In this document: in pieces, positions 15,769 to 58,454 of the stretch
Layout of the letters: every line of letters starts with the position of its first letter
Numbering within the stretch: the first letter of the stretch is position 1
Origin: Spinacia oleracea
Lineage: Eukaryota > Streptophyta > Magnoliopsida > Caryophyllales > Amaranthaceae
Direction of reading: 5' to 3'
NCBI RefSeq assembly: GCF_020520425.1
Contig: NC_079492.1
Coordinates: 68,067,671 to 68,131,670 of the forward strand
Length of the DNA: 64,000 nucleotides
Program-made: the position numbers and the translations under genes
The notes under the pieces: model-generated
Database searches by the model: none
What the model was told of the DNA's origin: nothing
What the model saw: only the letters and a program-made list of their open reading frames with translations

Positions 15769-15769
15769 C

Positions 15770-24736: not shown

Positions 24737-24739
24737 TGA
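24737..24739. repeat. Target-site duplication TGA of CACTA element TE1
   Basis: TGA at 24737-24739 and TCA (TGA on the minus strand) at 31151-31153 flank the two TE1 termini. The empty site is TGA at 4641-4643 in the 5' LTR. A 3-bp duplication is the CACTA hallmark. Confidence 0.75.
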
Positions 24740-27990: not shown

Positions 27991-28677
27991 CACTAGTACA
28001 AAAAAGGGATATTGCCATGAGCCTAAAAGGGGTTATTGATTCGTATTAAGTGCGAAGCATATAGACTCGATGCAATTGAAGGCATTCAATTGCTTCGCGC
28101 GAGTGCGAAGCAATTAAGATTCCTATTGCATTGCACTTACCAATATTTCGAAACATTTGATCGTAGCAACTATTAAAACGTACTAGCAATTGCTTCGCGC
28201 CTATCAATTGTTCGAAGCATTAAAAGTTCCAATTGCTTCGAACTTATGAATTATTCAAATAAATTTATTTAAGTAATTTCTTTGGTCTCAATCATAAGCC
28301 CGAAGCAATATATGCAATTTTTTAATTTTTAAAAAATATTCCACAAAGAGGGAATAACACCTCCATTTTCAACGAGGCAATCTAGTATACCACACGTCCC
28401 ATCATCTATCTCCAAAGCGCTTCATTTTGTACCAATAATAAGCAATTAAAATCAAAAAAAAATCAACTATCATAAAGTATTTCCCATGACCCATACAAAA
28501 TCATTAACCATTAAAAATCCATAAAATCATCCTAAAACGGCATCTATTACAAGTTGTCCAAAACATCAAAATATTTCAAAACAAATAAACTGCAAGGGAA
28601 GATAAGCTTTAACAGTTACAAGTAAATATCTTAATATCTAATAATAGTAGCTTTTAATTCTAACAAAATACTATACT

Positions 28678-29310
28678 TCAGGAGAATACAAAGTCCAAAA
28701 AGTATAGAGCCCAACAAGTTAAAACTTCACGAATTCGCCGATTAGTATAAGGTTTAGTCACCTTAAAATCCTGGAAAGAAAAAAAAAACAATGTTAACAT
28801 ATATAATATCTAAAGATATCATTAACTTAAATCTATTTAAAAAATTCCGTACCTTGAATAGATTTTCACTTCCACTATATGAGTGGACTATGTCATACAT
28901 GAACCTTGATGTAAAATACCCGCACTCAGTACCCCCGTCCTGTTGAGCACACTAGAGAAAACCAATTTAATATTTCACGGGTCAACAAGTCATTACTTAA
29001 ATTAAATTTCCAAAAAAGAAATGATAAAAACTGTAGATATTTACCACAGTAGCACCCCATTGTAATTGTTGACCTTTACTTTTCCCACCATATGCCTTGT
29101 AAGTTTCGAAGGCACTGTTCAATGATCATTATTCAGAAATACTATGAGATAATTGTACAAATTAATCAATTTATAGATAAATGTTGAAAAAATAAATTAT
29201 GAACTTACCTATCCAATACCACTCTTATTGCTAGGCTGCGTTTCTTCTTAATTGAATCAAATACGTGAACCGTATTTATGGTAAGGTAAATCACAAGAAG
29301 CACCTGATTG
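28678..29310 (-). pseudogene. Ulp1-like C-terminal exons of CACTA X second gene, catalytic His lost
   Basis: Four exons: 29209-29310, about 29043-29112, 28853-28951 and 28678-28770. They encode VHVFDSIKKK (catalytic-Asp region), CAQQDGGTECGYFTSRFMYDI (catalytic Gln/Cys region) and the C-terminus. In Y the first exon reads NNHWVLLVI. Here a 3-bp deletion near 29305 changes it to NNQVLLVI and removes the HW motif. With the frameshift at 3015-3020 this copy is dead. The donor at 28851-28852 is still GT, unlike Y. Confidence 0.75.
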
Positions 29311-29421
29311 CTACATGTTTAAAGAACCAATGAACAAAATTAGCTATTGTTTATATGAAAAGGGAAATCCTATAATAATAAGAATGTCAATAGCGTGTGA
29401 ATTAATATTTACCACTCGTAC

Positions 29422-29815
29422 AAGAAACACTTTCCATGCCCTTATTTTGGAGGGCAACGACCTCTTAATTGGTAGTGTGGGATGTAATGCAAAGATCATT
29501 CATACTGGAGAGGGGGGAGCACCTTCTGACCAGTATGGTTAGAATTTTAGTATGTAATGTAAGGGGAATCAACTTGCCTAGTAAACAACTAAAGGTGAAG
29601 AATTTTCTTCACTCATATCCATGTGGGCTTGTTGGTCTCCTGAAAACTAAGGTAAAAGCTACTACTTTGGGATTTTGGTAGCTTCGATTGTTTGAAGGTT
29701 GGTGCTTCACATCAAATATTTCTTGTCACAGTGGGGGTAGAATCATTCTAGTCTGAATCCTACCTCTTATATTGTGAATATTTCTTTTCTTTACATTTAT
29801 AGTTGTGTGTTTTTC
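29422..29815 (+). mobile_element. LINE endonuclease fragment inside CACTA X
   Basis: The plus strand encodes a broken L1-type ORF2 start, ILVCNVRGINLPSKQ and WCFTSNISCHSGGRI. This is similar to the intact LINE ORF2 at 50549 (FVMNVRGLNSAQKQ, WCVTSNFHTHKGGRI). It lies in an intron of the X second gene. A shortened version occupies the same position in Y (34998-35085). Confidence 0.7.
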
Positions 29816-30925
29816 GTGTGAGTGAGGGTGTGTGGTATGTGTGCAAGACTGCAGAGGTATGCAACATGTGTGCAAGCTAGTGTGACAGCAAGAATCTTAG
29901 TTGCTGTGTGCATGTGTGAGGCTTGCAGGGGCAGCAGAAACAAGCATCATATTTATTTGAACTTATCTAAACTTATTGACTCTTATCGGAACTTATTTAG
30001 AACAAGACTGAACAATTCAATCTGCATATATTTGCAGGAGAGGCACTTTAGGCACTTTCTACTGAGAACACTTGGAATTGATTCTCCTACTCAGAACACA
30101 ATTACCAATTCCTTGCAACCACCACCTTGCAGGTTGCTTCATGGCTGTGATCTCATCGAAGATGGAGTGGTTTCTTGACCCTAGGACATTATGATAGTTG
30201 ATGTAGTGGATTTTATGAACAATTTAGAAATATATGAACTTTGTGCTTGTATGCAATTGCCACCTCCCCTCAGCTCACCCCACCCAAATCTGGCCTTGTG
30301 CTTTGATCTTGTTATCCTAAATGCTTTTTTCCTTCCCCCAACAGGGTACGTAAATGAAAACAAGCCTAGAAAAACTGAGAACAGTTATAAGGAATATTGT
30401 AATGCTCATCAATGAGACATTGGTCAAGGAGATATTGAACTTTTTGTAATTTTTGATGGCCATGGAGATATTGAACTTTTAAGTTTGCTTCTTGTATGAT
30501 TCAGTAGCTCTATGATGTTAAAGAAAATCCCTAGTACTGGGTTTTAAACAATAAACTTTGAGGAAGTTTGCAGTGAATCAAAAGTTTTGCTACTATGCTT
30601 TCCCTATGTAGGCAAGGAATAGAAAATTGAGATTTGCTAAGCAAAAATCTTTGCAGAAGCAACCTGACATGCGAAATTTTATGGATGAAGATGAAGCTTT
30701 GAAGCAGGTAACTTTATCAGGTCTCTGAGCACTAACTATATGATTTGTGGTTCTCTTTTGGGGAAAATTTTTAATATTTCTTGGTGAGAAGACTGAGAAC
30801 ACTCAAATAACCTCTCATACTGTTAGTTGTTTTGGGCAAGACTGGAATGCACTTAACAGGGGTGATTATACCTTTATACACAGATTATAGGGGAGCATGC
30901 AATCGTGGATTGAGTTTGACTGTTT
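29816..30925. other. CACTA X internal DNA with exon-like segments, unidentified
   Basis: No recognised gene. Two segments look like exons. 30041-30175 follows TATTTGCAG and reads ERHFRHFLLRTLGID. 30610-30708 lies between TGTAG and GTAACT and reads ARNRKLRFAKQKSLQ. They may be captured host exons or chance. The rest shows nothing I recognise. Confidence 0.35.
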
Positions 30926-30930
30926 AGGCT
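30926..30930. repeat. Target-site duplication of the gypsy element, displaced right copy
   Basis: AGGCT here is AGCCT on the minus strand. It abuts the inverted LTR end and matches 3435-3439. Confidence 0.78.
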
Positions 30931-31153
30931 TGACAGGCTAAAGTGGTATCACCTAATCAAAGATAACCTAAGTCCACTAGCTAGGTAGCAAGGTAAGTCA
31001 GGATCGAATCCACAGGGAAACAATGTTCTTTCTACTATTAATCAATTAGGCTAGACTATTGGGAACAAGAGTTTGGTTGATGGTTTGCTAAAACTACGGC
31101 GATAATTAAACAATTAAGAATCAAGATATTAAGGAATCTAGGGTATAGGTTCA
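30931..31153 (-). repeat. Gypsy 3' LTR, terminal 220 bp, inverted
   Basis: The reverse complement of this stretch matches 4641-4862, the end of the gypsy 5' LTR, starting with TGAACCTATACCC. It is exactly the part missing after 24739. Its outer side carries the AGCCT duplication and its inner side carries TGA plus a TE1 terminus. It is the key evidence for the inversion. Confidence 0.9.
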
Positions 31154-31840
31154 TACTAGTGGAAAAAGGGTCATTTGCATCGCACATTTAAGTGCATTTG
31201 CGTCGCACATTGTGCGTGGCAAAAGCTCTCGACGCAAATGACTAAAAGTCATTTGCGTCGTACATTTGTGCGACGCAAATGACCCTCATTTGCGTCGCAC
31301 ATTAAGCAAATGTGCGTGGCAAATGACTTTTCAGGCACCATGTTGAAAAGTCATTTGCCACGCACATTAGCTTAATGTGCGACGCAAATGACTTTTCAGG
31401 CGCCAAAAAAAAAGTCATTTGCCACGCACAATAGCTTAATGTGCGACGCAAATGACAATTTGAGCGCCAAAAAATTAAGTCATTTGCCTCGCACAATAGC
31501 TTAATGTGCGACGCAAATGACATTTTTGGCGCCAAAAAATTAAGTCATTTGCCTCGCACATTAAGCTAACATGCGTGGCAAATGACATTTTTTGTTTTTT
31601 TTAAAAAATTTGTTTTTTAATATTTTAGTTTGTAAATTCCGACATCATCGTCTTTGAAATTAGATGCTTACCAATACCGGGAATACATTTATAAATAATA
31701 CCTGTCACAAAAGTTTACGACGTAATTAACGTTCCCAATAAAAGGCAATTAAATTCGTCATAGATCAACCAACATGTTACAACAAACATAAAATTATTAC
31801 AACAAAGGTAGCTAGCTAGAGATCGAGTTCATATTACAAA

Positions 31841-32310
31841 TTAAGCTAAAAATTCGACATTGTTCATGAAGTAATCTGCCCAAAAATCTTTCACCTCATT
31901 AATCTCCTCCGGTGAATAAGGCAATGTTCTTGAAAAATCCTAAAAAAGTGTAAATAATTCAATTTATCAACGATCGATCAATATAATAGTTTTGTGTACT
32001 TCAATTTATTATATAAAGTACGTAGTTTATGAGAACATACCTTAGTAAGATCTTGACTATTACCATGATTCATTATTATGTCGTACATAAAACGCATGAC
32101 GTAGTAGCCACAATCTAGTGATCCTGGTTGTTGAGCACACTACATGCATTAAAATAAATAACACAAGTAAAATTTCTATCACATTGTATGTTATAATTTT
32201 GAAAAACTTGATTCTTAGGTAAATAATAAACTAATTATACCTGTGCTGGAATCCATGTTAATTTAGTTCCCTTAGATTGTCCACTTAGTCTCTTTTAACT
32301 CCGAAAAGCA
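31841..32310 (-). pseudogene. Ulp1-like C-terminal exons of TE1
   Basis: Exons 32241-32310, 32041-32139 and 31841-31939 encode GQSKGTKLTW, CAQQPGSLDCGYYVMRFMYDI (Gln and catalytic Cys of a Ulp1-type cysteine peptidase) and the C-terminus ending at TAA 31841-31843. A TAA at 32295-32297 interrupts the first of them, and the upstream part with the catalytic His is missing. It shows that TE1 descends from an autonomous CACTA family distinct from X and Y. Confidence 0.72.
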
Positions 32311-32414
32311 CTACACATTCGATAAAATATGCAATTATATATACTTTGTTTACACATGTAAATGCAAAGAATATTTTACATGTAAGTGCAATTATAAATC
32401 ACTACTTTACTTGT

Positions 32415-32750
32415 TTCCTTGGGTCATATTTAGGCAAAAATGAAGTTTAAGGCTCCTTATAATCTATTATATCACATTTAACGCTAATTGGGTCGTTCTA
32501 GGACATATTTGGGCAAAAATGAAGTTTTCGAACCCAACTTTGAACTAAAGAACCTAAGGAATGTTTTCAAACTTATTACACGTTTAATATGCATATTTAC
32601 AACTTTCTAAGGCTCTTTACAATCTATTATTTCACATTTAAGGCTAATTGGGTCGTTCTAGGACATATTTGGGCAAAAATAACCCAACTTTGAACTAAAG
32701 AACCTAAGAAATGTTTTCAAACTTATTACACGTTTAATACAGCATCAAAA
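32415..32750 (-). repeat. 160-bp tandem repeat, about 2 copies, in TE1
   Basis: GGTCGTTCTAGGACATATTT recurs at 32491 and 32651 (period 160). The reverse complement is the same repeat that forms the larger array at 47371-48374 in element Y. Confidence 0.8.
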
Positions 32751-33021
32751 GCTACAAGGCCCAGGACTTTTTGGACCTGGCCAATACCGTGAAGTTTTAA
32801 TAACCAAACACTTTCGTAATAACAAAATGAATCCTTTCGTGTAAATCTTTAAGATGAAAAACAGACTCATAGCAGTCTTTTCACTATATTCCTTCCTTTT
32901 TTCTGTTTTGAGAGACTACATCATCTCCACCTTTTCGTTCCTCAATTATTGACATCACTGCTCTACCTCAATGGCCAAGATCAACAATGTTAACATTAAC
33001 AAAGCAGTAGGAACTACTTAC

Positions 33022-33449
33022 TTGTTTAACATCTTTGCCACCAACGCTGACTCCAGCCTCCACAAGGAAAGGGTGGCCTTCAAATACTTGAGCACTGCAC
33101 ATAATGACATACAGCAGGATGTCAAGTAAAGAAGAAAACTTAATTAGTTCTCAAAAGTTGATACAATCCTGCCTGAGTAAGTAGCAACCATGTCGGGATG
33201 CAACTCTTTTATAATTCCTAAACGAAGATTGTACTCCCCTGCAGGGCTGAGACACTGCAATGCGAATAACTTGCTATAAAAGATGGACACGGATTTCAAT
33301 GCAAATTGATAATTTATAATTAAGTGTGCTTACATCACCACTAGGATCACCGAATTTAGCCTGACGGAACAACTGGTGTATTCGAACTAGTTGTTGTGAT
33401 GTAAGTGATTTTACAGCCATTTTGGGGGTAAAATCTGTGCCCATTTCTC
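33022..33449 (-). pseudogene. TOP6B: TOP6B fragment, following exons, inverted
   Basis: Exons 33334-33449 (MAVKSLTSQQLVRIHQLFRQ), 33169-33254 (SPAGEYNLRLGIIKELHPDM) and 33022-33094 (AQVFEGHPF, GGKDVKQ) continue directly, in phase, from the plus-strand exon ending at 27673. They lie in reverse on the far side of a rearrangement. The donor after 33169 reads GA instead of GT; the others are canonical. The downstream TOP6B exons are absent, so the captured segment ended in the following intron. Confidence 0.88.
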
Positions 33450-33566
33450 CTGCAAATAGACAATAAACATCATAAAGGATCCATCTACATTAGAAAACTT
33501 GTATAGGCTAGCAAATATCCAAAACAAAATACATCAATTCTATGCAAATCAACCATCTCCATTAAC

Positions 33567-33569
33567 ACT
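33567..33569. repeat. Target-site duplication AGT of CACTA Y (displaced copy)
   Basis: ACT here is AGT on the minus strand. The matching AGT is at 27988-27990, at the other half of the same TOP6B intron. Confidence 0.65.
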
Positions 33570-34997
33570 CACTAGTACAAAAAGGGATATTGCTTCGAGC
33601 CTAAAAAGGGTTATTGATTCGTATTATGTGCGAAGCATATAGACTCGATGCAATTTAAGGAATTCAATTGCTTCGCACAAGTGCGAAGCATTTAAGACTC
33701 CTATTGCATTGCACTTACCAATATTTCGAAGCATTTGATCGTAGCAACTATTAAAACGTACTAGCAATTGCTTCGCGCCTATCAATTGTTCGAAGCATTA
33801 AAAGTTCTAATTGCTTCGAACTTATGAATTATTCAAATCAATTGATTTAAGTAATTGCTTTGGTCTCAATCGTAAGCCCGAAGCAATATATGCAACTTTT
33901 CTATTTTTAAAAAATATTCCACAAAGAGGGAATAACACCTCCATTTACAACGAGGCAATCTAGTATACCACACATCCCATCATCTATCTCCAAAGCGCTT
34001 CATTTTGTACCAATAATAAGCAATTAAAATCAAAAAAAAAAATCAACTATCATAAAATATTGCCCATGACCAATACAAAATCATTAACCATTCAAAATCC
34101 ATAAAATCATCCTAAAACGACATCTGTTACAAGTTGTCCAAAACATCAAAATATTTCAAAACAAATAAAACTGCAATGGAAGATAAGCTTTAACAGTTAC
34201 AAGTAAATATCTTCTAATAATAGTAGCTTTTAATTCTAACAAAATACTATACTTCAGGAGAATACAAAGTCCAAAAAGTATGGAGCCCAACAAGTTAAAA
34301 CTTCACGAATTTGCCCATTAGTGTAAGGTTTAGTCACCTTAAAATCCTGGAAAGAGAAAAAAAAACAATGTTAACATATATAATATCTATAGAGATCATT
34401 AACTTAAATTTATTTAAAAAAATTCGTAGCTTGAATAGATTTTCACTTCCACTATATGAGTGGACTATGTCATACATGAACCTTGAAGTAAAATACCCGC
34501 ACTCAGTACCCCCATCCTGTTGAGCACACTAGAGAAAACCAATTTAATATTTCATAGGTCAACAAGTCATCACTTAAATTAAATTTCCAAAAAAGAAATG
34601 ATAAAAACTGTAGATATTTACCACAGCAGCACCCCATTGTAATTGTGGACCTTTACTTTTCCCACCATATGCCTTGTAAGTTTCGAAGGCACTGTTCAAT
34701 TATCATTATTCACAAATATTATGAGATAATTGTATTAATCAATTTATAGATAAATGTTGAAAAAATAAAATATGAACTTACCTTTCCAATACCACTCTTA
34801 TTGCTAGGCTGCGTTTCTTCTTAATTGAATCAAATACGTGAACCGTATTTATGGTAGGGTAAATCACAAGAAGCACCCAATGATTGCTACATGTTTAAAG
34901 AACCAATGAACAAAATTAGCTATTGTTTATATGATAAAGGAAATCCTATAATAATAAGAATGTCAATAGCGTGTGAAATAATATTTACCACTCGTAC

Positions 34998-36303
34998 TGG
35001 TTCTGCGAGTAGAATCATTCTAGTCTGAATCCAACCTCTATTGTGATTATTTCCTTTTCTTTACATTTATAGTGGGCTTCATCAGTGGAATAGGGCTATT
35101 ACTGGTTCTGCGAGTTCCCTTTGCAAATGTTTTAGCTATAATTTACTTTCTAAAGCATACTACGGGGACTTATGTGCAGGGTTAGCAGAACAGTGACAAA
35201 AAAACTTCTGATGCACGTTGTATGTGATGTCTTGGCTATAGCGTCTAGTGAGGAATGTTTGTTAGCTATCTCCCGAGAATACAGGGTGGTATTACTTGAT
35301 TTGTCTATGCCGATTTGATGGCTTTGAAGTTGCTGTTCAAATAAGAAAAGGGTTCTCAAAGCGTCATGAAAGGCGTTAATTGTAGCACTCAATGGGAGTG
35401 CGGACAGGTTGACCCGAGAAAATTATGTCAGGGTTGGTATGGATGGTTGCGTATTGAAACCTATATCTGTTGATAAAATGAGAAGTGTTTTATCTGAGCT
35501 CCTAGAAAGACGAACTGTGTTTGAGCCGCTCTAGGTATTTGTAGAACACATGGTTCAGTGATATAAAGGAAGGGAGAAACATAGATTATTCTAGGCATGA
35601 CAAGATAGTGCTGCCAAATTTCTCTCTTGTTTTTACTTTCTTTAATTTTTCTTTGTAACCAATCGGGTGACTGGAGGTGTTGGTGTCTGACATTCAGTTC
35701 CAGGTGTTCATTCAATGTATATACCATAGTGTTGAGAATATCACAAAACATTCAATGTATATACCATAGTGTTGAGAATAGCACAGAACTACAGAAGAGG
35801 CAGTTATCAAGCAATGCTAATTAAACAGATATAGAATAGCACTTTTAACAGATTGCCACAGGGGAGCTAAAATTGACAATTCTGTGGCAATTTTGCGGCT
35901 TTTTTTTAATATTTATTTTGGACAATCATTGGTAACTACAGTAGTTAACTACCAAATGTATGATATTACTCAAGTGTACATAAAATTTCAAGCTGCATGA
36001 AGGGCTTCAACTAAACTGAGATCAATCGTGGTGAGCTTTTGGTGTTAACTTTATCAAAGCTTGGCTCGAGATGTACTACCTAAGAAGCCTAGGCCAAACA
36101 TGAGGCCTGATTAGTGATTACACTTGTTCTGCCTTTTCTTAGAGTTTCTATTTTTGACAACTTAGTTTATTTGAAAAGAATATACTTCGTATTTATTTTG
36201 ATGTCAAAAATATTACTCCAACAACAAATATATTTCTTTTGATGTAAAAATAATACTCCAACAAATCTATATCTATCAAGAGTAGGTGTTAAGATTATCT
36301 TAC
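34998..36303. other. Intron of the Y second gene with LINE remnant
   Basis: 34998-35085 is a shortened copy of the LINE fragment seen in X. 35700-35790 holds a 41-bp tandem duplication (TGTATATACCATAGTGTTGA twice). The rest shows no recognisable feature. Confidence 0.55.
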
Positions 36304-43014: not shown

Positions 43015-46000
43015 TTAACAATGATCATAACGCATATAATTTGCATCAAATGCATCTTCCCCGTTTGACTTAGGTAAGCCATTTGATAACGGCGGGTCCT
43101 CATCAAATTGATCATACTCTTCTTCGTCCTCCACATCACCAATACCAAGAATTCTTCTCTTTCCTTGAACAACAATAGACTTTTTTTTATCTTTGGGGTC
43201 AACAATGTAAAATACTTGCTTAACTTGTGCTGCCATGATGAAAGGCTCATTTTGATGACCCAAACGCTTAAAATCAACTTGTGTATATCCATCCTCAACT
43301 CTTCGCACACCACGCCCATTGTCAACCCACTTGCATCGAAATAGAGGGATTCTAAATTTGGTGTAGTCAAGCTCCCAAATATCTTCAATCACCCCGTAGT
43401 ATGGCATAGTTACTTCTAGAGGGCTAGTATCTTTAGCATTAGTGTACTCTGTTGATGATGCAACCACACTTACACCACTATTTTGATTAACAGACTTGGC
43501 ATCTTGGCGCTCCGTATAGAATGTATACCCATTGATATCATAACCTTCATATGAGTCAACTAGAAGCTCAGGACCATATGCAAGCCACTTAATCATTTCA
43601 CAAACTACTTTTGGAGTTTTAGTGCGTTGAGACATAACCTTGACTTGGAACCATGCTATAAAAGTGTCATTGTGCTCCTTAGCTAACCACTGATCATCTT
43701 TCAAAGGATTCTTCTCCTTCAAATAAGCCATGTGATCATCTATATAGGGTTGAACCTTAGAAAGATGTTGTAGTACGTACAAATGAGCCTTAGCCTTCAT
43801 CTTACGATCCACCACGATCCTTTTATGGCCAATTATACCATGACCTTCTAGCCTCTCTTCGTGGCGAGACTTCGGAAGTCCAACCGGTTCTAGCCCTGCT
43901 AGGTATTGAGCAACAAACCCCATAATCTCTTCAGCAATTGTGCCTTCAATAATACTACCTTCGGGATAGTATCGATTCCGGACTTTATCTTGTAAAGTGC
44001 CCAAATGTCTCTCAAACGGATACATGTTCCTCGCCCACACTGGACCACAAATCTTGATTTCTCGAACGAGATGCACGACCACATGTACCATGATATCAAA
44101 GAATGAAGGTGGAAAATACATTTCAAACTGACACAATGTGACGATAACTTCTGATTGTAGATCATCCAAAGTCGAAGGATCAATCTCCTTACTACATATA
44201 GCATTGAAAAAGAAACAAATCCTCGTAATGGCATTCCTCACGTGCTTTGGCAATATCCCTCGGATCGCAATTGGAAGAAATTGTTGCATCATAACATGGC
44301 AATCATGAGACTTCATAACCACCATTTTCAATTCGTTCTTGGACACGAGTCTTTTTATGTTGGACGAGTATCCAGATGGAACCTTTATGCCACGCAAACA
44401 CTCAAAAAAACTTATTTTCTCATTCTTAGACATAGTGTAGCATGCTGGAGGAAGATATTTTCCTTTTTCCTTATCTTCAGGCGCCAGCTCTGGACGGATC
44501 TTCAATTTTTGCATGTCTTTCCTAACATTTTCACCATCCTTTGTCTTTCCCGTTATATTAAGAAATGTCCCAATAATACTTTCAAAAACATTTTTTTCAA
44601 CGTGCATAAAATCGAGACAGTGCCTGACCTCTAAATGCCTCCAATACGGGAGATCCCAAAACGGGGACTTCTTCTTATAAAGGGCTCCTTTTACAGCCTT
44701 GTAAGGCTTTCCATAGACTGTGTTGATATCTTTGACCCGCTCGTACACCTCGCTTCCAGTAAGAGGAGGACGGGAAACTCGAACCTCTGTTTTCCCATTG
44801 AACGGTTTTTTCTTCTTTCGATAAGGGTGATCAAGAGGTAACAACCTACGAGTATGCCAGTATATGTTCTTCTTACAATGTTCTAAGTACTCTCCCACCA
44901 TATCATCTTCACAAATCGGACATGCTTTTGCTCCCTTGTTAATATAACCCGATAAGTTTCCGTATGCCGGAAAGTCATTCACAGTACAAAATATCATAGC
45001 ACGCAAAGTAAAGTTTGTTTCAGTGTAAGAGTCAAACACGGGAACACCTTCATTCCATAGCACTTTCAAATCATCAATAAGTGGTGCTAAGTAAACATCA
45101 ATATCATTTCCCGGATGTTTTGGCCCTGATATCAAAAGGGACAACATGATGTATTTTCGCTTCATACAAAGCCAAGGAGGGAGGTTATATATGGATAAAA
45201 GAACCGGCCAAGTGCTGTGTTGAGTACTAAGTGTGCCAAAAGGGTTCATTCCATCCGTGCAAAGACCGAGCCTTAAATTTCTCATTTCCTTACCGAAATC
45301 ATCGAACTTCTCATCAAAATTCTTCCATTGTGGAGAATCGGCGGGATGTCTAAGATATTCATCTTTCTTTCTCCCTTCTTCGTGCCACCTTAAATTCTTT
45401 GCTTCCTTCTTATTCGCAAACAAACGTTTAAATCTTGGTATTATCGGAAGATACCACAACACCTTTGCCGGAGGTCCTTTCTCATCTGGTGTACCATCCA
45501 CTTTCTTCCGCTTGTAGCGCGAGAACCCATATCTTGGACACTTGTGAAGATCTTCATACTCTTTCCGATACAATATACAATCATTCGGACATGCATGTAT
45601 CTTTTGGTAATCAATACCCATAGGACAAAGCATCGTTTTTGCTCGATAGTTAGATATCGGAATTTCATTCCCTTCCGGAAACATATCTTTCAAATCTTCC
45701 AATAGAGAAGTGAAACTCTGATCACACCAGTTGTATTTTGATTTCTTATTATACAGCTTCAACATAGCAGATAAGATGTTGTACTTAGAGCAACCAGGAT
45801 ACAATGGCTTACTCGCGGCACTCGATAAAGTCTCATACATACTAGGTTGATCATTGAGATAGTCTTCTACATCCTGCATCATCTCATTTATCTCATCATC
45901 CTCAACGTAGTCCAGCTCATCATTATCCATATCATCGCTACCATTATCGTCATCATGGATATCATTATCACCTCCGAAGTTGGTTCCTGAGTGCCCATAG

Positions 46001-46272
46001 TTAATATTGCACTTCCCATGGTTAACACTCTCACCATGCCATATCCACCTTGTATAGTTCAACCTAAAGCCACGACGAACTAAATGTTCCCTAATCTGAT
46101 CAACATTACGAAACCTCCTAGAACAATCACAATTAGAACAAGGGAAAAGTATTGACTCGTCACCATTCTTCAACTGATACGCAACTGCACATGCGATGAA
46201 CTCCTCAACCCCTAGAATGTATTGACTCGTAGTTCTTGAACCGTACATCCAATTGCGATCCATTTCTAACAA
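43015..46272 (-). CDS. En/Spm-type CACTA transposase, tnp2 family (1085 aa, uninterrupted)
   Basis: The transposase cuts and joins CACTA termini in the nucleus. Order: N-terminal transposase-associated zinc region (WMYGSRTTSQYILGVEEFI, FPCSNCDCSRRF, about 1-85); an acidic linker; a long tnp2 catalytic domain (CPNDCILYRKEY, CTDGMNPFG, PKHPGNDIDVYL, LEVRHCLDFMHVEKN, about 210-630); a DUF4218-like part (MMQQFLPIAIRG, GPVWARNMYPFERHLG, about 650-830); and a DUF4216-like C-terminal part (PYYGVIEDIWELDY, about 970-1040). The start is the first ATG (MLEMDRNWMYGS); ATG four codons in is equally possible. No stops or frameshifts, and length is typical. It could be active, or could act on related ends nearby (X). 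Confidence 0.92.
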   Translation of the reverse strand: MLEMDRNWMYGSRTTSQYILGVEEFIACAVAYQLKNGDESILFPCSNCDCSRRFRNVDQIREHLVRRGFRLNYTRWIWHGESVNHGKCNINYGHSGTNFGGDNDIHDDDNGSDDMDNDELDYVEDDEINEMMQDVEDYLNDQPSMYETLSSAASKPLYPGCSKYNILSAMLKLYNKKSKYNWCDQSFTSLLEDLKDMFPEGNEIPISNYRAKTMLCPMGIDYQKIHACPNDCILYRKEYEDLHKCPRYGFSRYKRKKVDGTPDEKGPPAKVLWYLPIIPRFKRLFANKKEAKNLRWHEEGRKKDEYLRHPADSPQWKNFDEKFDDFGKEMRNLRLGLCTDGMNPFGTLSTQHSTWPVLLSIYNLPPWLCMKRKYIMLSLLISGPKHPGNDIDVYLAPLIDDLKVLWNEGVPVFDSYTETNFTLRAMIFCTVNDFPAYGNLSGYINKGAKACPICEDDMVGEYLEHCKKNIYWHTRRLLPLDHPYRKKKKPFNGKTEVRVSRPPLTGSEVYERVKDINTVYGKPYKAVKGALYKKKSPFWDLPYWRHLEVRHCLDFMHVEKNVFESIIGTFLNITGKTKDGENVRKDMQKLKIRPELAPEDKEKGKYLPPACYTMSKNEKISFFECLRGIKVPSGYSSNIKRLVSKNELKMVVMKSHDCHVMMQQFLPIAIRGILPKHVRNAITRICFFFNAICSKEIDPSTLDDLQSEVIVTLCQFEMYFPPSFFDIMVHVVVHLVREIKICGPVWARNMYPFERHLGTLQDKVRNRYYPEGSIIEGTIAEEIMGFVAQYLAGLEPVGLPKSRHEERLEGHGIIGHKRIVVDRKMKAKAHLYVLQHLSKVQPYIDDHMAYLKEKNPLKDDQWLAKEHNDTFIAWFQVKVMSQRTKTPKVVCEMIKWLAYGPELLVDSYEGYDINGYTFYTERQDAKSVNQNSGVSVVASSTEYTNAKDTSPLEVTMPYYGVIEDIWELDYTKFRIPLFRCKWVDNGRGVRRVEDGYTQVDFKRLGHQNEPFIMAAQVKQVFYIVDPKDKKKSIVVQGKRRILGIGDVEDEEEYDQFDEDPPLSNGLPKSNGEDAFDANYMRYDHC

Positions 46273-47370: not shown

Positions 47371-48374
47371 TATAGTTTAGTTCAAAATTTGGTTCGAAAA
47401 TGTGGAATTTTACCCTAAATATGACATAGAATGACCCAATTAGCCTTAAATATGGAATAATTGATTAGAACGAGTCTTAGAAAGTTATAACTATGCATAT
47501 GAGACATGTAATAAGTTTGAAAACAATCCTTAGGTTGTTTAGTTCAAATTTGGGTTCGAAAACGCCATTTTAGCCTAAATATGACCGAGAATGATCCAAT
47601 TAGCCTTAAATGGGGAATAATAGATTAGTAAGAGTCTTAGAAAGTTATAACTATGCATATTAAACGTGTAATAAGTTTGAAAACATTCCTTAGGTTCTTT
47701 ATTTCAAAGTTGGGTTCGAAAACGCCATTTTTGCCTAAATATGACCTAGAACGACCCTATTACCCTTAAATGTAGAATAATAGATTGGAAAGAGTCTTAG
47801 AAAGTTATAACTATGCATATTAAACGTGTAATAAGTTTGAAAACATTCCTAAGGTTCTTTAGTTCAAAGTTAGGTTCGAAAATGTCATTTTTGCCTAAAT
47901 ATGTACTAGAACGACTCAATTAGCCTTAAATGTGGAATAATAGATTGGAAAGAGTCCTATAAAGTTATAAATATGCATATTAAACGTATAATAAGTTTGA
48001 AAACATTCCTTAGGTTGTTTAGTTAAAAGTTGGGTTCGAAAATGTCAATTTTGCCTAAATATGACCTAGAACGACCCTATTAGCCTTAAATATGGAATAA
48101 TAGATTGGAAAGAGTCTTAGAAAGTTATAACTATGCATATTAAACGTGTAATAAGTTTGAAAACATTCCTTAGGTTCTTTAGTTCAAAGTTGGGTCAAAA
48201 ACGCCATTTTAGCCTAAATATGTACTAGAACGACCCAATTAGCCTTAAATGTGGAATAATAGATTATTACGAGTCTTAGAAAGTTATAATTATGCATATT
48301 AAAAGTGTAATAAGTTTGAAAACATTGCTTAGGTTCTTTAGTACAAAGTTGGGTCGAAAACGCCATTTTAGCCT
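47371..48374. repeat. 160-bp tandem array, about 6.3 units, in CACTA Y
   Basis: TAGGTTCTTT or a one-base variant recurs at 47531, 47691, 47851, 48011, 48171 and 48330, a period of 160 (last 159). Units contain AAACGTGTAATAAGTTTGAA and CGACCCAATTAGCCTTAAAT and differ by about 5-10%. The same unit occurs twice in TE1 (32415-32750). Confidence 0.92.
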
Positions 48375-48375
48375 T

Positions 48376-48525
48376 AGAGGGGGAATTCTTAGAGAATGTG
48401 CTGAGAATTACAACCAAGCTGCTCAACTGTTTAATTCTAAGCTATCTGATGAACTTGATTCTCTCACTCAAAAGCTTCCAAACCCAAAAATTGTTTATAC
48501 TGACATCTACACCCCTTTGTTTGAT
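48376..48525 (+). pseudogene. GDSL esterase/lipase exon fragment
   Basis: The plus strand encodes GGILRECAENYNQAAQLFNS and then KIVYTDIYTPLFDM. This matches the conserved region of plant GDSL-type esterase/lipases between catalytic blocks, where NQAA.LFN and VY.DIY.PL are typical. It begins abruptly at the end of the 160-bp array and stops at a possible donor (AT|GTACTG). No other GDSL exons are near, so it is a captured fragment inside CACTA Y, transcribed opposite to the transposase if at all. Confidence 0.7.
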
Positions 48526-48631
48526 ATGTACTGTATCATTTATGTTCCTTCAATAAGAGAATTAAATTAGTAGTTTCTGTAAGTCCGTAACTACGTACCA
48601 TGAATGCAAGAGTTGAATATTAATCTATTGT

Positions 48632-48890
48632 TGATCAGAACTGTGCAGATCAGTGCACGGAACTGATCAGTTCTGATCAGAACTGTGCACTGATCTGCAC
48701 AAAACTGATCTGAGCTGTGTAGATCAGTGCACAGTTCTGATCAGAACTGATCAGTTCTGTGCACTGATCTGCAAAGTTCTGATCTGAGCTGTGCAGATCA
48801 GTGCACAGAACTGATCAGTTCTGATCAGAACTGTGCACTGATCTGCACAGAACTGATCTGAGCTGTGCAAATCAGTGCACAGTTCTGATC
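48632..48890. repeat. Dense GATC-palindrome array (CTGATCAG / TGCACTGATCTGCACAG)
   Basis: About 260 bp is built from alternating palindromic blocks, CTGATCAG, TGTGCAGATCAGTGCACA and variants. The whole array can fold on either strand. Similar short blocks occur at 60699-60752. No coding content. Confidence 0.85.
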
Positions 48891-49250
48891 GAAGCGCAGA
48901 GTTTTAAAGGAGAAAGATAGTTTTGGGGTAAGGGATGGAAAAGGACTCTGTAATGGAAAATTAAAGGAGAAATTTTTGGATTTTCAGTGCTGAAGGAGAA
49001 AGTTTTAGGAGGAGAAAGATTGGATTTTTCAGAAAATTAAAGGATTCATGTTTCTATTGCTGAAAATTCAGACACTTCTATAATGTCTTTTGCAGAAAAT
49101 TAAAGGATTCATGTTTCTATTGCTGAAAATTCATCTTCGCATATGTCTTTTGCCACAATCACAAACTCCAACACCCCAATATATGCAAACCGCTTTTTCT
49201 TGGATTCACATGTATCTTCTTTTGCAGAAACATGTGAAATACCCACTCTT
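48891..49250. other. Spacer before the LINE with a 43-bp duplication
   Basis: CAGAAAATTAAAGGATTCAT and the following TTCTATTGCTGAAAATTCA occur twice (49030-49073 and 49093-49136). No gene recognised. Confidence 0.55.
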
Positions 49251-49264
49251 AACAATTGCCAATT
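49251..49264. repeat. LINE target-site duplication, left (14 bp)
   Basis: AACAATTGCCAATT is repeated exactly at 54151-54164 after the poly(A). Confidence 0.9.
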
Positions 49265-49338
49265 ATATACCTAGTATTTGGAAATTAACATTGTTTTGCA
49301 TGAGCGGAAAACCCTAGTTTCCTCTCCTTCTTCTGCGA

Positions 49339-50586
49339 ATGGCGAAGGGGAAAGGGAACAAGAATAAGAATAATAGTAATAGTAATGCTATTGTTCAGTC
49401 AATGGATGTTCTTGGCAAGGGTAAGAAGCCTGGTGAGCAGCGCACACCAAATTCACCAAAAACACCGGTGCAAGGTTTTGCCCTAAATACGGAGAGTGGG
49501 AGTGCAATTTCGAAATTTGCACTTGATACACCAGCAGATGACAGTGTGTTATTATCTCCAAGTGCAGCGATGGAGGAGATTGTGCAAGGATCGAGGGCAA
49601 AAACGATAGAGGTCCTGCAGACTACTCCATGTGAAGAGGTAATTGCTCAAACCCACGTAAGTGCAGATGTGAATGTGGATAATATGGATGCTTATGATGA
49701 TGATTTGATTGAAATTTGTGATAATGACATAAAAGATGAATTGGAATATTGGTCGTTAAGCGTGATCATGTGTATTTATGGAGCAAACCCTAGAATAGGT
49801 ATGATTGATGGTTATGCACGTCGATTATGGGGTAATTTAAACGTTGACAAGATCATACCTATTAAGAAGAGTTTTTTTATGATTCGTTTCCTTAATAAGG
49901 AGACAATGCAAAAGGCCCTTGATGCTAAGTACCTACTGTTCGATAACAAACCTGTATTCATTAAAGAATGGCAGCATGATGGTATGGTGCTTGATGTTGA
50001 GGAATTTAAGAGGGTTCCAGTATGGGTGCACCTTCCAGCCCTTCCCCTGAGGTACTGGGGCTGCTTGTTAAAATTGCTAGGTAAGGTTGGTAAACCTTTA
50101 CACCCAGATCAGGCTACTACAAATAGGGATCGAATTGCATATGCGAGAGTGCTAGTGGAAATGGATATTGATAAGGTGTTCCCCAAAAACATACAGTTCA
50201 AAAATGAAAAGGGTGTAGTGGTTAGTCAAGAACTAGAGTTTGAATGGAAGCCTCCTACTCAATGGGAGAATGATGGTCAAGGGCTACACAATGTGAAGCA
50301 GAAAAAGGTTTGGAGACCTATAAAGAAGGCAGTGGTAAGTCAAGAAGAAGAGACAACTCAACCAGAACAGCAGCCAACGAATGAGGGGGATGGTTTTGTC
50401 TTAGCTAAGAAGACAATGTCAGCCAGGAGGAATCATAGCAATAGAGAGGAAGTGGGCACATCGAATATGTTTGGATTAATTCAAGCTGATGAACCGGTGA
50501 TCGGTGTGGATGATATGGATGCAGGAGATCAAGAAATGAATGTGTTAGATGGACAATCTGTTCGTGATGAATGTAAGGGGGCTTAA
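49339..50586 (+). CDS. LINE ORF1 protein (DUF4283-type, 415 aa)
   Basis: ORF1 of plant L1 elements encodes an RNA-binding protein. The N-terminus is low-complexity and basic (KGKGNKNKNNSNSN). Residues about 135-285 form a DUF4283-like region (WSLSVIMCIYGANPRIGMID, VPVWVHLPALPLRYWG, AYARVLVEMDI). I do not see the CCHC zinc knuckle that often follows. The frame is open throughout and overlaps the ORF2 start by 38 bp, which suggests reinitiation or frameshift-type expression. Confidence 0.85.
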   Translation: MAKGKGNKNKNNSNSNAIVQSMDVLGKGKKPGEQRTPNSPKTPVQGFALNTESGSAISKFALDTPADDSVLLSPSAAMEEIVQGSRAKTIEVLQTTPCEEVIAQTHVSADVNVDNMDAYDDDLIEICDNDIKDELEYWSLSVIMCIYGANPRIGMIDGYARRLWGNLNVDKIIPIKKSFFMIRFLNKETMQKALDAKYLLFDNKPVFIKEWQHDGMVLDVEEFKRVPVWVHLPALPLRYWGCLLKLLGKVGKPLHPDQATTNRDRIAYARVLVEMDIDKVFPKNIQFKNEKGVVVSQELEFEWKPPTQWENDGQGLHNVKQKKVWRPIKKAVVSQEEETTQPEQQPTNEGDGFVLAKKTMSARRNHSNREEVGTSNMFGLIQADEPVIGVDDMDAGDQEMNVLDGQSVRDECKGA

Positions 50587-53500
50587 CAGCGCCCAAAAGC
50601 AGAAAGAGGTACAAAACCTCTTTCTTACGCAGCAGGCGGGCATTGTGTGTTTAATTGAAACCAAGTTGAAGTCTGCAAGTTTTGATATGGTTTATGCGAA
50701 CTTGTTTCAACAGTGGTGTGTTACTTCGAATTTCCATACGCATAAAGGTGGTAGAATTCTGGTGGCGTGGGTAGAACAGAACTTTGGTGTGAATATAGTC
50801 CATGTTTCGGATCAAATTATCCATGTCGAGGTGTATAATAAGGTCTACAAGAAAGCTTTTCAGTTATCGGTTGTGTACGGTCATAATGACAATGCTAGCA
50901 GGTTGGCTATGTGGAGGGATTTGGAGAGAATTGGTGCAAATATGGTGATGCTGTGGATAGTAGTTGGTGATTTCAACAGTCCACTACATTATGATGATAG
51001 AGTGGGGAGCACTGTGAGTTATGCTGAGATTAGAGACTTTCAACAAATGGTAAATAAGTGTAACTTGGTAGATTTAGCTTGCACGGGGCCTCGGTATACT
51101 TGGAACAACAAGCAATTGGGGAGCAGCCGTGTTCTTAGCAAGATTGATAGGAGTTTAATTAATGATGTTTGGATTGAGAATTGGCCTAATTTGATTGTTC
51201 ATTTCTTACCTGAGGGCTGGTTTGATCATAGTCCCATGGTTATCCGTTTTGACAAGCAGTGTGGTAAGGGGAGGGCTTCTTTTAAATTTTTTGATATGTG
51301 GACCTCTCATCCAGAGTATTTGGACACTGTGAAGCAGGCATGGAACATTGAAGTGACTGGAGTTCCTATGTTCAAAGTGGTTAGGAAGCTAAAATCATGC
51401 AAATATCACTTGAAGAACTTGAATAAGCAGCATTATGATAAGATTGCTGATAAACATGCAAGGGCTAGGGGGGATTTGGAGGACATCCAACAGCTACTAC
51501 ACAGGTGGCCTGCTGATCCCATTGTTGCTTCTTATGAAAGATACGTGGCTGAGCAATTTAAAGAGGCTAACAAGGCCTATGGGAGTTATCTTGCACAAAA
51601 GGCTAAGGTGAAGTGGCTAAAGGAGGGAGATGAAAACACATCCTTTTTCCATAAGATTATTAAAGTGCGGCAACACCAACAGAAGATTTTGCAAGTTAAT
51701 GCAATGGATGGTACTGTAAGATCCACTCCTGATGAGGTTGTTGATGCATTTCAACAATTCTATGTGCAGCTGCTTGGTTCCACATCTACTGAGAGGCAGA
51801 ATATTCAACCGGATATTATCAAGATGGGGCCCACTGTTAATAATGAGCAAGCTAATTTGCTATTACAGGCTTTCTCGGATGATGAGATAAAAGGTGCCAT
51901 GTTCTCTATTCCCAATTTCAAAGCTCCGGGACCGGATGGGTTTAACTCTACCTTCTTCAAGACAGCTTGGGGTGAAATTGGAGGTGAGGTATGTACGGCT
52001 ATCAGAGATTTCTTTTCTTCTGGAAAAATGTTGAAGGAATTGAACTGCACAAAAATCACGTTAATTCCTAAGGTGAGTCACCCTACTTCTGTGACTGAAT
52101 TCAGACCTATAGCTTGTTGTAACACATTGTATAAATGCATTACCAAGCTTATTTGTATGAGACTGAAGAGAGTGTTACCTCAGATTATCTCCCCTAACCA
52201 ATCTGGTTTCATTGAAGGTCGGTAAATTGTTCACAATGTTAGTATCCTTCAGGATTTGGTAGGTGTGTATAACAGGAAATCCGCTCCTCCTGGATGTCTT
52301 CTGAAAGTGGACATTAGGAAAGCATATGATTCTGTGCATTGGGAGTTTTTGAAAGAGATGTTAAAAGAGCTGAATTTTCCTAATAGGTTTATAGACTGGA
52401 TAATGGCCTGTGTTACTACTCCCTCCTATTCTCTTTGTATTAATGGCTCTACCAAGGGTTTCTTTCATGGTAAGCAAGGACTAAGACAGGGGGATCCGAT
52501 GTCTCCATTTCTTTTTGTGATTTGTATGGAGTATTTGTCTAGACTCTTGCAGTATGCTAGCTGTCAACAGGGGTACCAGTTTCACTACAGGTGCAAAGTT
52601 GTGAGGCTCAATCACCTTGTGTTTGCTGATGATTTAATCTTGTTCTCCAGAGGGGATGAGTTCTCTATTATGCAAAATATGAGGGCTTTGGCAACTTTCG
52701 CTAAGGTTTCAGGTTTAGCAGCAAATTCTGGTAAATCTGCGCTCTATGTTTGTAATGTTCCTGATGAGATCAAAAGCAGTATTCTGGATAAAACAGGCTT
52801 CATGGAGGACAAATTGCCTTTTAGATATCTTGGGGTAAAGATTAGTGCCAAGAAGCTTTCGAAAGCTGATTGTGAATTCATGGCTGATAAGATTGGAGCC
52901 AGGATCAGGTCCTGGGGGAGTAGGACGCTTTCTTATGCTGGGAGAGCTCAGTTGGTGAATTCTGTTTTGCTTAATCTTCATACTTATTGGGCCTCGATGT
53001 TTATTATTCCTAAAAAGGTGATAGATATGGTCATTGCTAGTTGCAGGAGCTATCTTTGGGCTGGTCAAGTAGGCTCGTCCAAGGCACTTTTAGCTTGGGA
53101 TTGGGTGTGCAGACCAAAGAATGAAGGAGGTCTTGGTTTCAAAGAAAGTCATGCATGGAATCTGGCTCTTCTTGGAAAATACGTGTGGAGTATTGCGAAA
53201 AAGGAAGATAATATGTGGGTTCGTTGGATTAATCATGTATATTTGAAGCAACAAACTTGGATGAGCTATTGTCCTCCAGCCAATGCGAGTTGGTATTGGA
53301 AAACATTGTGCAAAGTGAAGGACCATTTCAGGTCTGGTTACTACCAGGACAGATGGGTCTTCAACCCCCGAGGTTATTCTGCTAAAACCGGATACCAGTG
53401 GCTTAGAGGAGAGAGGCCGAAAGTGGAGTGGGCATGCTGGGTTTGGAGTCGTTTTAACATTCCTAAAACCAGGTTCATATGTTGGCTCATTATGTGGAAC

Positions 53501-53941
53501 AGGTTGCAAACAAAAGACAAACTTCATCGTTTTGGAGTGATTGATAATGATACTTGTCCTTTGTGTAATCAGGAAGTGGAGAGTATTGATCATGTGTATT
53601 TCAGGTGCAACTACTCGCAAATGTGCTTGACTGAACTGTGCAATCAGCTGGGGATTCGTAGGAGTTTGGCGCAACTTCCTGATATGGACCAGTGGTTACG
53701 GAGGCCAGCTGAAGGAAGATTTAAGGTGGGAGTTATAAGGGCCTGCATTACGGCACTCATGTACTAGATATGGATACAAAGAAATGAAGTAGTGTGGAAG
53801 AAGAAGCTAGGAAGACCTGAAGCTCTTATTCGTTTCATAAAGTGGCAATGTTATTGGAGGATCATGCAGATTCAGCCTAGGAAGATTAGTGTGAATAATC
53901 AACGGTGGTTTGATAAGTCTTTTAGAGATTTGAGTAATTAA
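50549..53941 (+). pseudogene. LINE ORF2: endonuclease, reverse transcriptase, zinc domain (two nonsense codons)
   Basis: The AP-type endonuclease has LIETKLKS, VVGDFNSPL and FDHSPMVI (about 1-230). The reverse transcriptase has GPDGFNSTFFK, FRPIACCNTLYK, GLRQGDPMSPFLF and the FADD catalytic motif near 52625. A zf-RVT-like region follows (RLQTKDKLHRFG, CPLCNQEVESIDHVYFRC). TAA at 52223-52225 falls between RT motifs and TAG at 53765-53767 near the end; otherwise the frame stays open to 53941. The first looks like one C-to-T change of CAA. Only the two stops disable it, so the insertion is young. Confidence 0.92.
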
Positions 53942-54150
53942 TGTTTGTAAGATGTTGCTGCATATGATTGAATTCCCCCTTTTTGAACCCTTCTTAGAAG
54001 GTGGCAATAGGGGAGAATTATGATGCTGGAGCAACGTCTTAGTGGTGAAGTTTTGTTTGTGTTCTGTTAGTTTTGTGGCATGCAGCTGTAATGTTTTGAC
54101 ATTTTTGGTTTGTTTAATATAGTTCTAATTACCTTTCTCAAAAAAAAAAA

Positions 54151-54164
54151 AACAATTGCCAATT
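54151..54164. repeat. LINE target-site duplication, right (14 bp)
   Basis: AACAATTGCCAATT directly follows the poly(A) and matches 49251-49264. Confidence 0.9.
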
Positions 54165-54435
54165 CTCATTCAAGATTATACTTTCACCTTAGACTTAGCT
54201 AATTGCCAAGAGTTTAAGTAGTTTGACAATTTACCATTTTTATATTCAGGAATACAAACAGACTGGATAACATCATAACACATTTGTTTCGTACTTTTTA
54301 CACGACTTATTTTCACTAAACTTGACTTATTTTGGATACTCTGACCTATCTTATTTTGGATACTCCGGCCTAGCGACCAACCATTAACTAACTGATAATT
54401 ATATTGACACTCCAAACTCTACAATAAAAGCTAAA
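54165..54435. other. CACTA Y 5' region after the LINE
   Basis: Continuation of element Y. TTATTTTGGATACTC is duplicated at about 54327 and 54352. The last nine bases (54427-54435, AAAGCTAAA) are a MITE target duplication. No gene recognised. Confidence 0.5.
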
Positions 54436-54978
54436 GGATTTTTTGGTATTTACTACCTTGAAAATACACCATTTTTGTATTTACTACCTTATGAAAATTT
54501 TATTTTAAATTACTACCTTAAAGTTCCAATTTATTTTTATTTACTACCACTTTACAATTTTCTCATTTTAAAATTGAGATATCTCTTTCGTTTCTTAATC
54601 ATTTTAAGTGATTTAAAGCCCATTCTTCTCATTTATATGTAATGATTCCATAGGGATCTTGCTTTTAAAATTTTGTAAAAGATAAAACGAATTAAATATT
54701 ATTTGTAAAAGTTTAAAATATATATGAATTATCAAACGAATTGTTTTGCAATGTCGTTCTCAATGAAATCCCTATAGAGAAAGGAGAATAATGATCTTTG
54801 AATCACATTAAACGATTAAGAAACGAAAGAGATATCTTAATTTTAAAATGAGAAAACTGCAAAGTGGTAGTAAATAAAAAAAAATTGGAAGTTTAAGGTA
54901 GTAATTTAAAATAAAAATTTCATAAGGTAGTAAATGCAAAAGTGGTATATTTTTAAGGTAGTAAATACAAAAATTTCC
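54436..54978. mobile_element. Mutator-like MITE with 9-bp target duplication
   Basis: The ends read GGATTTTTTGGTATTTACTA and, on the other strand, GGAAATTTTTGTATTTACTA. The inverted similarity extends over 200 bp inward. It is flanked by an exact 9-bp AAAGCTAAA (54427-54435 and 54979-54987), typical of Mutator-like elements. No ORF. Confidence 0.85.
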
Positions 54979-56340
54979 AAAGCTAAATAATACAAAATAT
55001 AACTAAAGTTTTTTTTTTGACAAAAAATATAACTATAGTTGAGTGCCACAATTCTCTTTAACCTATAACAACATGCTCCTTTGATAATCCAACTAACAAA
55101 TATATGTTGTTGCTTTCACACATCTATTCTAACTTTCTAAGGCTAAGCTTGATTTAATACAAGCAATCATTCATACTCTTCACCATGAACTACAAGAAGG
55201 ATATTAAACTACATTTATCAACTACCCTACTACTCCAACAGACCATACCAGCGACAACCAAACAGAACCAACACACCATCAGAAAGAATCCAGCAACCAG
55301 AAACCACCAACAACCAAACACTCAAAACGGAGTATAACAAATAATTCCAAATCAAATCGCAATAATTTCTAGTTAGGAATTGAGAGACATGAAGTTACTT
55401 AGAGCATTCAAGGTACATCAAATCACCAAATCCTTTGAGAACAGAATAATGTTCCAATTTCAATGGACAAAAGGGGGAAACTGTTATGCGTGCTAACCTC
55501 TAGAATCTCCTTCGCTATGTCTGACTTGTTCACTTTGTCCAGGACAGGAACTTCTCAGCTAAAACTTCAACTTCTGAACCAACTTCAAAGGATAGCAGGA
55601 GCGCCCTTCTTTATCTGCGATATGAGTTTCAACAAATTATTAGTTTCCATCCTCTTTAAGCAATCAATCTAAAACAATTAAACCAAATTAAAATTCTAAT
55701 TATTTTATACAAGAATAATCAGTTATGGTAAAGAAAAGCAGTAGTCTTTTGCAATGAATACCTCACAACACCACCAACGCCATTGAAACAGACATTTGGT
55801 GGGCAAGAAACGCGAAAACCCCCCCTCAATTCCGACTAATTACATCATAAATAATAGGAAATTAAACCGGTAGTGCAACTAACCTTTCAATTCCGATGAA
55901 TCTTCGAATGAATCTTCCAATTCCAATGAACTCGAGTGCAGAACCGATCGATGAAAGTAACAGCTTACTAGCAGCAACAATGGTGGGTGGTATATTTTGG
56001 TTGTTTTTTCTAATTTACTTTTATGATTGAATTTTCTTGCGCATATTTATGATGTTCCATAGTGAATCACGTCGCCCTGTGACCGGAGAAGTGCGCCGTA
56101 GAGACCGGAGAAGTGCGCCGTGGAGACCGGAGAAGTGGAGAGAAGTGGGAGTTAGTAATGGAGGTTGCTCGTGGTTCTGTACTTTTGAGGAAGGAGGGGT
56201 AGAGGCCAGTCGTGGGTTAAGGTATACTGGTATAGTAATTAGTAATTACAGCTTGGAATGGGCCATCAAATGAATTGAACTTTCGCGTGGCCGATTCAAT
56301 TGGGCCTGCGCAGCTTGCTTACATAAAATCCAAGAATTTT
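54979..56340. other. CACTA Y 5' untranslated or intronic region
   Basis: No gene recognised. 56081-56145 holds three copies of a 22-bp repeat (GACCGGAGAAGTGCGCCGTG). A transcript leader for the minus-strand genes may start here. The small open frames carry no recognisable domain. Confidence 0.45.
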
Positions 56341-56581
56341 ATTGCACCGTTTATAAATAGGCCCGAAGCGTTTTCTTTTTGGCGGAAATATTAAATATTT
56401 TAGCGGATTTATTTCATGCTTAAATGCTTCGAACTCTATTAAGTCCGATGCAATATACTTGACAGAATCTCAAAATCTATCAAATGCTTCAATCCCAAAA
56501 ATAGTACTGAAGCAAATGTAACTTAATGCTTCGAGCATGTTTAGGTTCAATGCATTTAAGGTGAAGCAACATGCATTTTTT
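56341..56581. repeat. CACTA Y 5' subterminal repeats and ragged terminus
   Basis: ATGCTTCGA or close variants occur several times, e.g. near 56424, 56485 and 56526, matching the subterminal motif at the 3' end (28050-28320, 33630-33890). The last 16 bases GCAACATGCATTTTTT match 13 of 16 of the inverted 3' terminus. The expected outer GTACTAGTG is absent; AGAGATCTAG follows instead. Confidence 0.6.

Positions 56582-58363: not shown

Positions 58364-58454
<91 letters not shown>

Follow-up and report, generated by a model that had tools for sequence, protein, structure and literature searches.

A block of 28,591 bp in spinach (Spinacia oleracea) is inverted between the ends of two related CACTA transposons, here called X and Y, which lie in one nest of transposable elements. 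The whole stretch of DNA analysed (the window, C6:68067671-68131670, 64,000 nt) holds the inverted block at positions 27991 to 56581, and the inversion is confirmed at the level of the sequence. By sequence comparison, both breakpoints lie within about 15 bp of an element end, which for Y is the 5' end and for X the 3' end, and turning the block back repairs TOP6B (topoisomerase VI subunit B), the long terminal repeat (LTR) of a Ty3/gypsy element, X and Y together. We regard it as probable (roughly 0.7) that these two ends acted as those of a macrotransposon, which was cut by transposase and whose block was rejoined backwards. The sequence searched was a single assembly (894 Mb in 242 contigs), with neither reads nor a second haplotype.

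Nesting order and empty sites

The features that bear on the inversion are given by their position in the window.

1 to 3439, forward strand: left part of X (CACTA), piecewise collinear with Y; carries a copy of an LTR (about 1-1757)
3435 to 3439: target duplication AGCCT of the gypsy element, left copy; empty site in 4 of 4 fetched X relatives
3440 to 24739, forward strand: Ty3/gypsy element in X, with gag and pol domains and LTR matches; 3' LTR split by TE1
24740 to 27990, forward strand: left half of TE1 (CACTA-like), which has captured TOP6B sequence, introns included; 26668-27962 is 92.6% identical to the parental gene
27988 to 27990: target duplication AGT of Y, left copy, now adjoining the X 3' end; a single AGT in the parental intron
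27991 to 56581: inverted block; right edge set by comparison with the Y family
27991 to 28005, reverse strand: X 3' terminal repeat CACTAGTACAAAAAA; left junction, ambiguous across these 15 bp
27991 to 30925, reverse strand: inverted right part of X, sharing 95% identity with the 3' part of Y over 27990-29421; joined to the left part of X in four relatives
30926 to 30930: inverted copy AGGCT of the gypsy target duplication
30931 to 31153, reverse strand: end of the gypsy 3' LTR, inverted; 96.4% identical to 4641-4863; TE1 duplication TCA at 31151-31153
31154 to 33569, reverse strand: right half of TE1 and the following TOP6B exons; ACT copy of the Y duplication at 33567-33569
33570 to 56581, reverse strand: Y (CACTA); 3' tip at 33570, 5' end short by its last 9 bp at 56581
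43015 to 46272, reverse strand: tnp2 transposase frame of Y, 1085 codons, stop-free, with Transposase_21, Transpos_assoc, DUF4218 and DUF4216
56576 to 56581: run of six T (T6) at the right junction, with a microhomology of 3-6 bases
56582 to 56794: flank right of the junction, read as the native 3' flank of X; TTT fits the X left flank

As judged from self-comparison and domain searches, the nesting order holds: Y lies in TE1 and its TOP6B, TE1 in the gypsy 3' LTR, and the gypsy element in X. A reading made earlier from the letters of the window alone (the sequence-only reading) had proposed this order together with three target duplications that match only when the block is flipped, and empty sites in the same genome bear out all of it. 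For the gypsy element, with AGCCT at 3435 and its inverted copy at 30926, five further copies of the right part of X were found and the site was fetched in four of them. All four are uninterrupted and read ...TTTATTTCC-AGCCT-AAACAGTC, a single AGCCT joining the left and right parts of X. The gypsy LTR starts with TGATAAG at 3440, and the LTR end beside AGGCT reads CTGTCA. Separate insertion of an X-like end at 27991 was also considered and is ruled out, as the two halves of X are continuous in the four relatives fetched (five found).

TE1 has a 3-bp target duplication, TGA at 24737-24739 and inverted TCA at 31151-31153, with the gypsy 5' LTR as its empty site, which had been predicted at 4641. 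When the two 120-base flanks of TE1 are joined and compared with the gypsy 5' LTR around this position, the alignment has 2 mismatches and is gapless at the join (24739 / 31150). The TE1 ends, CACTCGTGG and TACTAGTGG, are neither of them exact CACTA; each is one base off CACTAGTGG.

For Y, the duplication proposed in a TOP6B intron (AGT at 27988-27990, ACT at 33567-33569) is matched by the single AGT of the parental intron. At the parental TOP6B (C4:1166054; 93% identity to the flank used), the sequence ...TTATCATAGTGCTATAAGAGATGG... contains one AGT and is unbroken over the Y site. In the window the two halves read ...TTATCATAGT, ending at 27990, and, backwards from 33566, GTTAATGGAGATGG, and collinearity with the parent runs through the block 26511-27962 and continues in the block from 33559 backwards to 32731. 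The fit is imperfect in that the parent is ~40 bases longer at about 21 bases left of the site, with a few mismatches at the site itself.

Each of the three empty sites (TOP6B intron, X relatives, gypsy 5' LTR) fits only with the block from 27991 turned, and the flip is therefore required. Together they place the left edge at 27990/27991 (within 15 bp) and the right edge beyond 33569, where it is fixed by comparison with copies of the Y family.

The TOP6B part of TE1 points to gene capture by a CACTA-like element, as TE1 carries a large piece of the gene with intron sequence (24950-27990 and 31590-33566), which matches the parental gene on C4 at about 93% identity. The exon string right of the break matches Topo-VIb_trans at E 1.9e-15 and solved TopoVI-B chains at E 5.8e-14. 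The string left of the break is without a Pfam match at E 0.01 and is called TOP6B for its continuity with the parental locus and from what is known of the protein. Two peptides from the far end of TE1 are likewise without a Pfam match at E 0.01.

The CACTA family of X and Y

X and Y belong to the same CACTA family. They are collinear piecewise at 88-97% identity, with X interrupted by LTR elements, and X DNA matches the tnp2 stretch of Y at 89-96%, again in pieces. The 5' end of X is at G000:C6:68008887, 58.8 kb left of the window, and its tip carries one altered base (CATTAG). A CACTA terminal inverted repeat, CACTAGTAC, is present at the 3' ends of X and Y and, with at most one change (16 exact), at 19 of 19 other 5' ends read, X included; the 5' tip of Y is lost. 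Over 3.3 kb, Y shares 99.1% identity with two family members that have both tips and matching duplications, and the Transposase_21 match in its stop-free frame (E 3.9e-88) identifies a tnp2-type transposase. Because Y is near-identical to two copies with intact tips and has this stop-free frame, the family looks recently mobile.

We surveyed close members of the family, taking 5' ends by a 22-base pattern with at most one mismatch (n = 19) and 3' ends by a 30-base pattern with at most three mismatches (n = 26). Ends were paired by strand and distance, so that strand agreement within pairs is by construction. A same-strand 3' end was found within 125 kb for 12 of the 19 5' ends, and 10 of these 12 pairs have matching 3-bp duplications; the target duplications of the family are thus 3 bp and mostly reliable. 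Two pairs fail. In one, on C6, the ends are 124 kb apart; the other is a derivative some 350 bp long on C2 (L052, G000:C2:49024713), which combines a family 5' end with a more divergent 3' end and has the mismatched triplets TCA and TGT. For five 5' ends the list has no 3' partner. The remaining two are those of X, for which the listed 3' end lies on the other strand, and of Y, for which the pattern missed the 3' end through one deleted base.

The two junctions

The inversion joins the 3' end of X to the AGT formerly beside Y, and the 5' end of Y to the right flank of X. At the left junction, the 5' tips of the Y family and the 3' tip of X both start with CACTAGTACAAAAAA and are identical for 15 bp, so the join can be placed only within these 15 bp. 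The sequence-only reading had called this junction exact; its position at the 3' tip of X stands, but the exactness does not, as the join is ambiguous over the length common to both tips. A clean left junction alone is therefore no proof of precise cutting at the X end.

For the right junction, 300 bases on each side of 56581|56582 served as query, and 40 of 1560 candidates were scored, one of them being the window itself. Of the 39 other copies of the Y 5' end, 36 lose their match precisely at base 56581 (query base 300), the three exceptions ending at query bases 291, 299 and 301; nine of the 39 sit in a single tandem array on C2 and do not count as independent copies. In the 19 other 5' ends read (X included), GTACTAGTG comes directly after the T run, exactly in 16 of them and with a single change in the others, and Y is without these 9 bp. 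Both the breakpoint at a damaged 5' terminus of Y and the loss of about 9 bp, as earlier suggested, are thereby upheld. In the 5'-end census, 17 of 19 ends have the tip (at most one change), the two without it being Y and the divergent L065.

The junction reads GCATTTTTT|AGAGATC. The triplet left of the X 5' end, outside the window, where a 3-bp match had been looked for, is TTT, which is compatible with a right junction inside the T run. A native TTT-AGAGATC flank is compatible with this sequence and would overlap the T run of Y. With a TTT frequency of 0.038 in the window, the match is supporting and not decisive. Of the donor duplications, AGT is kept at the left junction; the TTT of X is only compatible at the right, inside the T run.

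L065 (G000:C4:56866438) is a family 5' end with its tip missing, cut right at the T6 run and joined to copia-like DNA. This cut is possibly the same kind of repair scar.

Origin of the inversion

The comparisons show the nested ancestor, the inversion, the placing of both breakpoints at ends of two elements and the loss of 9 bp. X was invaded in turn by the gypsy element, then by TE1 with its part of TOP6B, and then by Y, its sibling, which carries a transposase frame. This left the Y 5' end and the X 3' end 28.6 kb apart, facing outward like the ends of one giant element, and because of this orientation we treat the unit as a macrotransposon. In the sequence of events that we propose, a CACTA transposase would have cut at both ends and released the block, which would have been re-joined turned, the X 3' end to the AGT left beside Y and the Y 5' end to the right flank of X. 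We infer that this joining was by end repair, with 9 bp lost at the right (9-12 counting the TTT duplication of X) and a 3-6 base microhomology of T. Cutting at both ends, turning and end joining would explain both junctions in one event. The three independent empty sites agree on one flip and support this account, as do breakpoints at the ends of two elements of the same family, one 5' and one 3', as expected of alternative transposition. The mostly reliable 3-bp duplications of the family, the fit of TTT at the right junction and the signs of recent mobility also speak for it. If the CATTAG change in the X tip predates the event, the 5' end of Y may have been the better partner for the X 3' end. 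The sequence-only reading had proposed alternative-ends transposition, with the Y 5' end paired to the X 3' end and rejoining in reverse; the ends and breakpoints support this, and we refine it to a macrotransposon with direct ends and a presumed transposase step. It is not classed as reversed-ends transposition, because there is no new target site with a duplication.

Several points weigh against this account. Transposase activity is presumed from sequence, and joining by microhomology at the left would be indistinguishable from precise joining, given the 15-bp identical tips. No new target duplication is visible at the junctions, with the block back at its own site, unlike the Ac inversions described in the available text of PMC9910405. 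The own site of X is without empty-site support: a second copy of the first 213 bases of the right flank was sought, and none was present in the 40 that were scored out of 3608 candidates. The match of the X duplication rests on three bases within a T run. Lastly, there is no second clear inversion among the 19 5' ends and 26 3' ends of close members.

Exchange or template switching between the inverted 15-bp terminal repeats, with no transposase and with a later loss of about 12 bp between TTT repeats at the Y end, would produce precisely the left junction, as the Y-family 5' tip and the X 3' end have CACTAGTACAAAAAA in common. However, such an exchange predicts that the Y tip survives at the right junction, and a deletion is then needed as a second event. 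In the ancestral order, the window also contains 39 exact inverted matches of at least 15 bp spanning at least 2 kb (of 98 in total, simple repeats excluded), so that the 15-bp pair is not the favoured substrate; one repeat, some 300 bp long at 88% identity and containing exact runs of 22-64 bp, accounts for many of the 39. We therefore consider this explanation unlikely. The clean left junction beside AGT would also fit true strand transfer, in which the excised macrotransposon was re-inserted inverted by transposase at its own repaired site, with a new right-hand AGT that was later lost together with the right end. This is possible but less simple than rejoining by end repair, since it needs an identical trinucleotide and a subsequent deletion, and the right-hand AGT leaves no trace; we hold it to be improbable.

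An error in the order of the assembly must be considered for a repeat-rich region in one assembly without reads. False joins are, however, expected in long shared repeats; the left join sits in a 15-bp repeat only, and at the right Y minus 9 bp meets DNA without a second copy in the 40 scored out of 3608 candidates. An artefact is thus very unlikely. Although the bodies of X and Y are homologous, with 95% identity over 1.4 kb, ordinary ectopic recombination between them is ruled out, as X and Y are parallel in the ancestral order and crossing over would delete and not invert; moreover, the breakpoints are at the tips and not at homologous internal positions.

Relation to known systems

Alternative transposition is established for Ac/Ds and documented mainly there. 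Huang and Dooner reportedly dealt with pairs in direct orientation in 2008, a work cited in PMC2775673. In the parts of the articles available, a 28-kb Ac macrotransposon is described as excised with a modified duplication left behind, and reversed-ends inversions are described as well (PMC9910405); Ds/Ac macrotransposition is cited as mobilising up to 100 kb of mostly nested retrotransposons (PMC3260210). As far as these excerpts go, our case is like the maize Ac/Ds macrotransposons in that a 5' and a 3' end are supplied by two linked elements of the same family, and what lies between them moves as a whole. It differs in that Ac/Ds belong to the hAT superfamily and make 8-bp duplications, whereas here a CACTA family with 3-bp duplications and two nested elements is involved and the block is inverted at its own site. 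The reversed-ends inversions at maize p1, in the accounts available, also use the ends of two different elements, but these are reversed and reach a new target site with 8-bp duplications at the endpoint, whereas in our case they are outward-facing and a new target site is not apparent.

For VANDAL21 in Arabidopsis met1, alternative transposition including inversions is proposed in the portion of the article available (PMC12312487), likewise for a plant DNA transposon other than Ac/Ds. VANDAL21, however, is of MuDR type, and the case concerns a head-to-head pair and somatic reads; further head-to-head class II pairs were sought there, and none is reported in that portion (PMC12312487). Galileo in Drosophila resembles our case, by the available text, in having a transposon at both breakpoints and exchanged target duplications, but the inversions are attributed there to ectopic recombination between inverted copies, giving chimeric elements, whereas here the copies are parallel and only the 15-bp tips are inverted (PMC2775673). 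The terminal inverted repeats of Jozin, a CACTA element of Chenopodium, such as CACTAGTGGAAAAAAGTTCATTTGCAAC and CACTAGTACAAAAACGTACATTTACTTC, resemble the tips of TE1 and X/Y in the available text (PMC8978399). The main text of that paper, in its available form, is without the word "inversion", and as a general remark it places CACTA elements at hot spots of large rearrangements in Aegilops (PMC8978399). A CACTA inversion by alternative transposition was not found among the articles listed in our literature search, in parts available and with subscription journals mostly outside its coverage.

What is new here is the CACTA superfamily, the nested donors and the return of the block, inverted, to its own site. 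The chances seem to us evenly balanced that a plant CACTA transposase can synapse the ends of two different nested elements across almost 29 kb and invert in place what lies between them, which would make nested families local inversion machines, with end loss at T6 as a recurrent scar. CACTA elements are abundant in plants, and with a natural case resolved to the base, their nests would come under suspicion as a source of small, gene-splitting inversions. A searchable signature would follow, namely target duplications that are mismatched as they stand and match after a flip.

Other features of the window

Two further retroelements lie in the nest.

about 6784 to 17101: copia element nested in the gypsy element
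49318 to 53767, forward strand: frames of a long interspersed nuclear element (LINE) type retroelement inside Y, with DUF4283, Exo_endo_phos, RVT_1 and zf-RVT

In self-comparison, the gypsy 3' LTR seems to be without about the first 500 bp of the 5' LTR, and two palindromic stretches (22735-23396 and 23968-24322) lie in or beside it. Inside Y, a dense palindromic array of TGATCAGAACTGTGCA-like words is located at 48632-48890, and a 160-bp tandem repeat (47376-48374) recurs inverted, at about 88%, in the TOP6B part of TE1 (32443-32739). To the right of the inversion, the dinucleotide AT is repeated perfectly for 42 units (58367-58450).

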